NCBI GenBank assembly: GCA_015686845.1
Contig: JADPRS010000019.1
Coordinates: 1-64,000 of the forward strand
Reading direction: 5' to 3'
DNA length: 64,000 nt
DNA from: Lutibacter sp. B2
Lineage (GTDB): Bacteria > Bacillota > Clostridia > Peptostreptococcales > Thermotaleaceae
Shown: piece after piece, positions 32,197-33,000 of the stretch
How the letters are laid out: the number at the start of each line of letters is the position of its first letter
Numbering within the stretch: the first letter of the stretch is position 1
Made by a program: the position numbers and the translations under genes
The notes under the pieces: model-generated
What the model was told of the DNA's origin: nothing
Database searches by the model: none
What the model saw: the letters and a program-made list of their open reading frames with translations, nothing else

Positions 32197-33000
32197 ATGG
32201 ATAATACCAATTTTATAATGATTTTTTTGGATTGGCTAATGAGTTTTGATAAAATAGCAATAATCTTAGCAGGATCAGCAATAGGAGCAGGACTTGCCAT
32301 GATCGCAGGAATAGGGCCAGGAATTGGTCAAGGTTATGCAGCGGGAAAAGCAGCAGAAGCCACAGCTACAAATCCAGATTCATCTAAGCAAGCAACCATG
32401 GTTATGTTACTTGGAGCAGGTATTGCAGAAACTTCAGGGATTTTATCCTTAGTAATCGCACTTATTTTACTATTTGGAAATCCTCTGATATCACAACCAG
32501 GAGATGGTTTAGTGATTGCAGTATCAGCAATAGGAGCAGGACTTGCAATGATCGCAGGTATTGGACCCGGTGTTGGTCAAGGATATGCTGCAGGTAAAGG
32601 TGCAGAAGCAACAAGTATTAATCCCGAAGGTTCAAGGGGTTCAACCTTAGTTATGTTATTAGGTTCAGCAGTAGCACAAACCTCTGGTATATTTTCCATG
32701 GTAATTGCATTGATTCTAATGTATGCAAATCCATTAGTAAATTCTCATGGTTCTACAATTGTCGTAGCTGCATCTACACTAGGGGCAGGTATTGCAATGA
32801 TCGCAGGAATAGGGCCTGGAATTGGTCAAGGCTATGCTGCAGGAAAGGGAACTGAAGCAGCAGGAAAGAGACCGAAATATCAATCAAGTGTAATTAAGAC
32901 GATGATCCTTGGACAAGCAGTAGCACAAACCACAGGAATATATGCTTTAGTAATTTCCTTGGTGTTAATGTTTGCAAACCCATTGTTAAAACTACTATAA
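32197..33000 (+). CDS. atpE: Triple-hairpin ATP synthase c subunit with a single carboxylate
   Basis: 267 aa, three tandem F-type c hairpins (about 20-98, 104-181, 187-265), each with GIGPG(I/V)GQGYAAGK. The Na+-site Gln (Q45, Q128, Q211) is in all three, but the ion-binding Glu occurs only in hairpin 1 (GIAE78TSG); hairpins 2 and 3 have Gln instead (AVAQ161TSG, AVAQ244TTG). The polar-loop RQP of normal c is replaced by TNP, INP and KRP. Acetobacterium woodii has a related two-hairpin c1 that lowers the ion-to-ATP ratio of its hybrid rotor (known). Three hairpins with one carboxylate would lower it further if built into the ring. Good AGGAGGTG site. Confidence 0.92.

Follow-up and report, generated by a model that had tools for sequence, protein, structure and literature searches.

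How can the rotor ring of an F-type ATP synthase make use of a subunit c in which three helical hairpins are fused into one chain and the ion-binding carboxylate is left in only one of them? The question is raised by a stretch of 64,000 nucleotides from Lutibacter sp. B2 (contig JADPRS010000019.1, positions 1 to 64,000 of the forward strand; hereafter the window), in which an ORF at 32197-33000, starting with ATG and ending with TAA, encodes a protein of 267 amino acids (this gene, called c1 below, and all other features of the window are on the plus strand). Hairpin 1 (residues 19-98; 32251-32490) has an intact ion site with Q45, E78 (codon 32428-32430) and T79. In the site-less hairpin 2 (residues 104-182; 32506-32742), the corresponding residues are Q128, Q161 (codon 32677-32679) and T162, and in hairpin 3 (residues 187-267; 32755-32997), which is also site-less and of the type found at the end of such chains, they are Q211, Q244 (codon 32926-32928) and T245. 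Thus, helix-1 Gln and the Thr directly after the ion-site position are kept in all three hairpins, and the chain can be written E-Q-Q after its ion-site residues. A gene for an ordinary single-hairpin subunit c of 89 amino acids follows at 33080-33349 (Q32, V63, E65, T66, Y70). The Na+ motif, which consists of helix-1 Gln and helix-2 Glu followed by Ser or Thr, is complete in this single c and in hairpin 1 of c1. A first-pass annotation of the window had described three c hairpins with E78, Q161 and Q244, helix-1 Gln in each of them and a normal 89-residue c behind, and the ORF, the Pfam matches and the residue check bear out this description. Pfam finds three separate ATP-synt_C matches in c1, with an E-value of 7.4e-42 for the whole protein, far beyond chance; its PF00137 score over the three stretches is 141.9 bits against a cut-off of 24, and its TIGR01260 score is 118.3 against 43.95. 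As judged from profiles and operon together, the 267-residue chain is a subunit c of F-type ATP synthase.

The operon has the usual F-type appearance. An atpZ-like gene (ATPase_gene1; 30717-30941), atpI (ATP synthase I chain; 31058-31471), whose product is described as an assembly factor in Acetobacterium woodii (PMC7911925), and atpB for subunit a (31471-32166) were assigned by Pfam, and subunit a carries its conserved Arg in SFRLFGN, a motif that starts at residue 159. Then come c1 and c, and behind them the F1 side of the operon, atpF, atpH, atpA, atpG, atpD and atpC at 33390-38720, named by their order and recognisable sequence. This gene order is maintained across the eight relatives that were compared. 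Fusion of three or more hairpins is known from subunit K of A-type enzymes, as a triple in Methanocaldococcus jannaschii and as 13 hairpins in Methanopyrus kandleri, but these belong to V/A-type enzymes, and M. kandleri keeps the ion site in all 13 (PMC2359735). The identity of c1 as such an A/V-type triple-hairpin subunit K is ruled out by its F-type operon and by the V-type subunit D search, which found no match in the own genome at an E-value of 0.001.

A much closer counterpart is c1 of A. woodii, which is in the solved ring of PDB entry 4bem together with nine c2 chains as one c1 chain (chain J). It shares with the window c1 the fused hairpins, the F-type operon with a single c beside it, Glu in hairpin 1 and Gln in the last one (Q....ET and then Q....QT), and also an N-terminal stretch that is aligned in the fold comparison, but it has two hairpins, and two single c genes stand behind it in the locus L133 of our survey while the window has one. 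The c1 of Clostridium aceticum is similar in having one single c, Glu in hairpin 1 and a last hairpin without a carboxylate, and it differs in having two hairpins (PMC7911925). Among solved structures, 4bem_J is the best match to the window c1 by sequence (E-value 2.1e-60) and also by predicted fold, which agrees with the first-pass view that the gene is of the A. woodii hybrid-rotor kind. With three hairpins instead of exactly two it is a variant rather than a plain member of that kind, while E78 in the first hairpin, Q244 in the last and the adjoining single c are as in other c1 of hybrid rotors. The AlphaFold2 model, of middling confidence (pLDDT 73.2, pTM 0.72), has three helical hairpins after a short N-terminal helix, and its match to 4bem_J (Z 14.4, 179 residues, rmsd 4.0) covers residues 2-181 only. 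Such a fold comparison by itself would not carry the case, because Z values of up to 11.8 are obtained with unrelated designed helical repeats against the same model, and in helical models the arrangement alone can give about 13. The two-hairpin c of the V-ATPase of Enterococcus hirae (2bl2) has a related fold (Z 8.9) and likewise brings one ion per two-hairpin chain, with fewer ions per turn (PMC2359735), but it belongs to a V-type enzyme and is 23% identical in the fold comparison. Taken together, the gene is probably a long form of c1 in a hybrid rotor of a Na+ F-type enzyme. A place as a minority subunit of the rotor is proposed by analogy, because the solved A. woodii ring contains its c1; the predicted c1 may be scarce in its own ring, or absent from it.

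What would such a subunit do? One 267-residue chain, possibly more, would close a ring together with single c subunits, where Gln161 and Gln244 would let hairpins 2 and 3 pass the Arg of subunit a without an ion, so that at c1 the ring would rotate through three hairpins per one Na+ instead of per three. The earlier statement that one c1 takes away two sites relative to three single c subunits holds on the residues, with E78 as the only carboxylate beside Q161 and Q244. If a ring of 11 hairpins with one c1 is assumed, it would have 9 sites and would use 3.0 Na+/ATP, and other ring sizes or copy numbers would lead to other ratios. By the same arithmetic, an 11-hairpin ring would use 3.33 Na+/ATP with a two-hairpin c1, 3.67 as c11 and 2.33 with an E-Q-Q-Q-Q chain. 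The Na+ F-rings characterised by 2013 all had 11 hairpins (PMC3692424), and for A. woodii a ring with 10 ion sites (PMC7793690) and a ratio of 3.33 Na+/ATP (PMC5662883; PMC7793690) are given. A hairpin in an 11-ring takes 32.7 degrees, and the gap between successive carboxylates would then be about 98 degrees with E-Q-Q and 164 degrees with E-Q-Q-Q-Q. The carboxylate-free stretch across c1 would have to be bridged, probably by the elastic central stalk; in the enzyme of Escherichia coli, elastic coupling between the ring and F1 is described (PMC6384691). As to the ion, Na+ coupling is predicted from the motif and may hold, though the motif is no guarantee: Sporomusa ovata has it, yet its ATPase is not stimulated by NaCl (PMC9430772).

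Is the window alone in having such a long c1? Loci were collected from a scan of a genome collection (best 80 places, at least 78 distinct loci) and from the best matches in sets of 16, 198 and 393 genomes, and hairpins were counted with a profile built from the four hairpins of the window itself. This yielded 122 multi-hairpin ORFs, which comprise 92 different sequences. Since loci were ranked by likeness to the window protein, proportions among the 92 chains recovered are biased towards the query. With this bias, two hairpins are found in 65 of the 92 (all 65 E-Q), three in 15 and three to six in 27, which is in line with the earlier expectation that three hairpins are rarer than two. The three-hairpin chains recovered are E-Q-Q in 13 cases and E-E-Q in two; those of four hairpins are E-Q-Q-Q (four) and E-Q-E-Q (three); those of five are E-Q-Q-Q-Q (two), E-Q-E-E-Q (one) and an E-Q-E-Q-E chain cut by a contig end (one); and a single one of six hairpins is E-Q-E-Q-E-Q. 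The search for three-hairpin F-type c in Clostridia that the first-pass annotation had proposed thus found them, together with chains of four, five and six hairpins. No hairpin was missed inside a chain, since the linkers are 3-15 residues and the tails at most 14. A less biased view is given by the 198 genomes sampled from the order, at least 17 of which have three or more hairpins per chain, as checked through the loci, and 79 of which have a best E-value of 5e-35 or lower and were taken by eye as multi-hairpin (single-hairpin matches go to about 3e-32). L133 served as a positive control: its E-Q c1 shows no difference from A. woodii c1 (4bem_J) along a stretch of 157 amino acids, and two single c genes follow it, the same arrangement as described for the A. 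woodii operon (PMC7911925). The longest F-type c chain among those recovered is a 538-residue frame with six hairpins at L109:376-1989, on the minus strand. At L128:1489-2538, a four-hairpin E-Q-E-Q c1 precedes two single c genes, and this locus shares its genus code (g169) with L133; close, experimentally friendly comparisons may therefore exist.

The ion-site residues of these chains follow a simple rule, though the chains are related by descent and the counts are not independent. Every chain (92 of 92) opens with a Glu hairpin, and every complete one (91 of 91) closes with a Gln hairpin. Where Glu is absent, in 126 hairpins, the site is invariably occupied by Gln, with Thr behind it in 125 and Ser in one. 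Helix-1 Gln and the Thr after Glu are present in 103 of 103 Glu hairpins; among the 126 site-less ones, 7 lack helix-1 Gln, and all 7 are middle hairpins of the four- and five-hairpin chains L017, L023 and L060, in which Cys or Val is found instead and Thr is kept. In structures of the Ilyobacter tartaricus ring, Gln32 and Glu65 reportedly come from one subunit and the hydroxyl of Ser/Thr66 from the adjacent one. In that case, a hairpin without a site would still need its Thr for the neighbouring site but could do without its own helix-1 Gln, and this would explain why Thr is kept while helix-1 Gln is sometimes lost. A single c gene is at most 350 bases away in 86 of the 92 cases. Of the other six, five have it farther off, two of them being additional copies upstream and three standing first in an E-Q pair, and the sixth is a cut locus with no single c in the available DNA. 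At the N-terminus, a loose motif is recognised in 66 of the 91 complete chains, with 'WL' in 58.

Among other explanations, the one that survives best supposes a scaffold or a neutral ratchet: the fusion fixes assembly or size of the ring, loss of Glu is tolerated, and a changed gearing is a mere by-product. We regard this as unlikely. Chains with E-Q repeats hold the density of sites at one in two, and E-Q-E-Q and E-Q-E-Q-E-Q chains may have a use other than gearing; the two E-E-Q chains (L022 and L015) retain two sites; and the loss of helix-1 Gln in the middle hairpins of L017, L023 and L060 is what is expected under relaxed constraint. On the other hand, tolerance does not readily account for Gln, and no other residue, at the site of every site-less hairpin, nor for their conservation. 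Between the window c1 and its orthologue in the relative G007, dN is 0.095 and dS 0.94 for the whole gene (a dS this high is a rough value), which points to purifying selection on the coding sequence, and hairpin 2 alone gives dN 0.09 and dS 1.15, again with a rough dS. The dN/dS ratios of hairpins 1, 2 and 3 are about 0.23, 0.08 and 0.02 in this comparison, and 0.02, 0.03 and 0.06 between G007 and another relative, G006. Site-less hairpins are clearly conserved by these ratios, which are as low as the range for the active hairpin.

Another explanation turns the enzyme around. A long c1 may suit an enzyme that is mainly an ATP-hydrolysing Na+ pump, which could build a larger Na+ gradient if it moves fewer ions per ATP, in the manner of V-type enzymes. 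The arithmetic is in its favour, as the attainable gradient rises when the ratio falls, and so are the genes adjoining the operon, which are putatively for amino-acid fermentation (kce and CoA-transferase, recognised by eye) and suggest that ATP could be obtained from substrates. Nevertheless, the gradient could be made without ATP by the products of two other kinds of genes in the same genome. One RnfC-type match above the cut-off was found in a profile search (G000:C4:42220-43140, corresponding to profile positions 128-433 within a 313-residue open frame), and a membrane pyrophosphatase was also found. Because of these two and the lack of a V-type subunit D match noted above, a single rotary ATPase run on an ion gradient built by other pumps is plausible. 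In addition, both the C. aceticum and the A. woodii enzyme are presented in the literature as synthases of ATP that work with Na+ (PMC7911925). A pump is thus improbable here. For a synthase with a long c1, the first-pass annotation had supposed a benefit to a fermenter limited in energy, and this stands in part: if fewer ions are spent on each ATP, an ion yields more ATP, but each ATP then requires a larger ion-motive force (PMC5662883). At 32.1 kJ/mol, the force needed would be 111 mV at 3.0 Na+/ATP, 100 mV at 3.33 and 91 mV at 3.67. The supposed benefit is therefore reasonable but not established.

It is still less probable, in fact very improbable, that the long c1 does not regularly belong to the ring and acts elsewhere or only under some conditions. 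What speaks for this comes from two relatives (L003/L157 and L004/L158), in which a three-hairpin c gene is present as an extra copy upstream of atpZ, between a CoA-transferase gene and atpZ (L003:4001-4804, L004:4001-4801, L157:3976-4776 and L158:3366-4166), besides an E-Q c1 and a c in the operon itself. L003 is a metagenome bin of Marinisporobacter in the family Thermotaleaceae (NCBI naming). Identity between the two extra copies is 95%, dN 0.031, dS 0.388 and dN/dS about 0.08, and because of this difference between dN and dS they are judged to be maintained; these two genomes could assemble rings from three kinds of c. Against it, the c1 slot of the operon is occupied by the three-hairpin gene itself in the window, in G006, in G007 and in a third relative, G010, and A. 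woodii c1 is present in the solved ring. In each of these three relatives the orthologue has 267 codons and a single c behind it (G006 and G007 are assemblies of one contig each, G010 of two), and full-length matches over all 267 residues are found in 6 of 16 genomes of the GTDB family, the own genome included. An expanded or collapsed repeat, which might be suspected as the source is a draft genome of 77 contigs, is ruled out as practically impossible by these same-length orthologues in the one-contig genomes G006 and G007 and by the pairwise DNA identity of merely 65-71% among the three c1 hairpins and the single c, at which neither a recent tandem copy nor a collapsed repeat is to be expected.

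With the gene regarded as a long c1 of a hybrid rotor, from where did its additional hairpin come? Hairpin 1 of the window has a mean identity of 76% to first hairpins and 59% to last hairpins of two-hairpin chains, and hairpin 3 of 58% and 75%, respectively. Hairpin 2 is at 69% to the first type and at 60% to the last; therefore, it is most likely a copy of the first, Glu-bearing hairpin whose Glu was then changed to Gln. A tree of 152 hairpins, which is weak for its few columns (11 of 149 branches starred as well supported), agrees with the identities in that 26 of 33 middle Gln hairpins group on the side of first hairpins, while the side of last hairpins also takes in 6 of the 48 first ones and 7 of the 33 middle Gln ones. 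Six of these seven belong to chains that also hold an E-Q repeat, as would be expected. The seventh is the middle hairpin of L008, whose grouping with last hairpins in this weak tree points to another origin.

The history of hairpin number was also followed on a tree of subunit a, which covers 84 of 87 loci (59 with two hairpins and 25 with more; L109, L049 and L055 were dropped as their pieces were too short). On the best tree, the distribution of two versus more than two hairpins needs 9 changes, whereas with labels shuffled the mean is about 22. Three of the nine are forced by starred branches, and three changes could equal one gain and two losses. There are strong single cases: L008, with E-Q-Q, pairs with L037, with E-Q, on a starred branch within an otherwise E-Q clade. 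Branches near the window are weak, and its clade may have gained E-Q-Q once or more than once. Because the make-ups differ (E-Q-Q, E-E-Q and E-Q-E-Q), and together with the changes on the subunit-a tree, hairpin number is likely to have changed repeatedly. In the same tree, subunit a of L016, titled delta proteobacterium, pairs with L108, which is from a genome of the window's order; L016 is perhaps a mislabelled metagenome bin.

How much of this is new? Genes for c or K of more than one hairpin in general are already seen by annotation: a database paper of 2025 reports variants that have at least two hairpins and may or may not carry sites (PMC11738941). The two-hairpin hybrid rotor of F-type enzymes is already known as well, and so are three or more hairpins in V/A-type rotors (PMC2359735). 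Among the papers listed by the literature searches, none dealt with an F-type c of three or more hairpins; a 2015 review on hybrid rotors and a 2014 paper on the A. woodii ring lay outside this reading and may mention one. We put forward, as a tentative view whose chance seems somewhat short of even, that Clostridia evolved rotor genes of two to six hairpins more than once and that their Na+ ATP synthases are geared by how many Gln hairpins the chain has. If this is true, two to four successive site-less hairpins would make sectors of about 98 to 164 degrees, and the motor would cross several ion-less positions consecutively, where A. woodii c1 contributes one. Ratios of 3.0 Na+/ATP or less would be reachable, down to the 2.33 calculated for E-Q-Q-Q-Q in an 11-hairpin ring. 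As the ion cost of an ATP is fixed by how many ion sites pass in one turn, these genes offer a natural series in which site number appears to be altered by adding site-less segments within one chain, with the gene order unchanged. What is the lowest ion/ATP ratio for an F-type enzyme, and how many consecutive ion-less positions can its motor cross? Both questions become testable with this series.

Finally, how would the amounts of c1 and c be set relative to each other? Ribosome-binding sites of both genes look strong and leave the c1:c ratio unexplained. A perfect 9-bp stem-loop is located between the two genes at 33030-33050, with no run of T behind it. It is the only exact copy in the genome, by which a dispersed repeat is ruled out. 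A general role as a regulator of the c1:c ratio is also ruled out, as no structure was predicted in the c1-c gap of five close relatives (L003, L004, L081, L082 and L083); stems are predicted in the gap of some more distant ones. The long c1-c gap of L041 seems, by eye, to contain a short broken c-like frame, which is perhaps a remnant of a further c gene.
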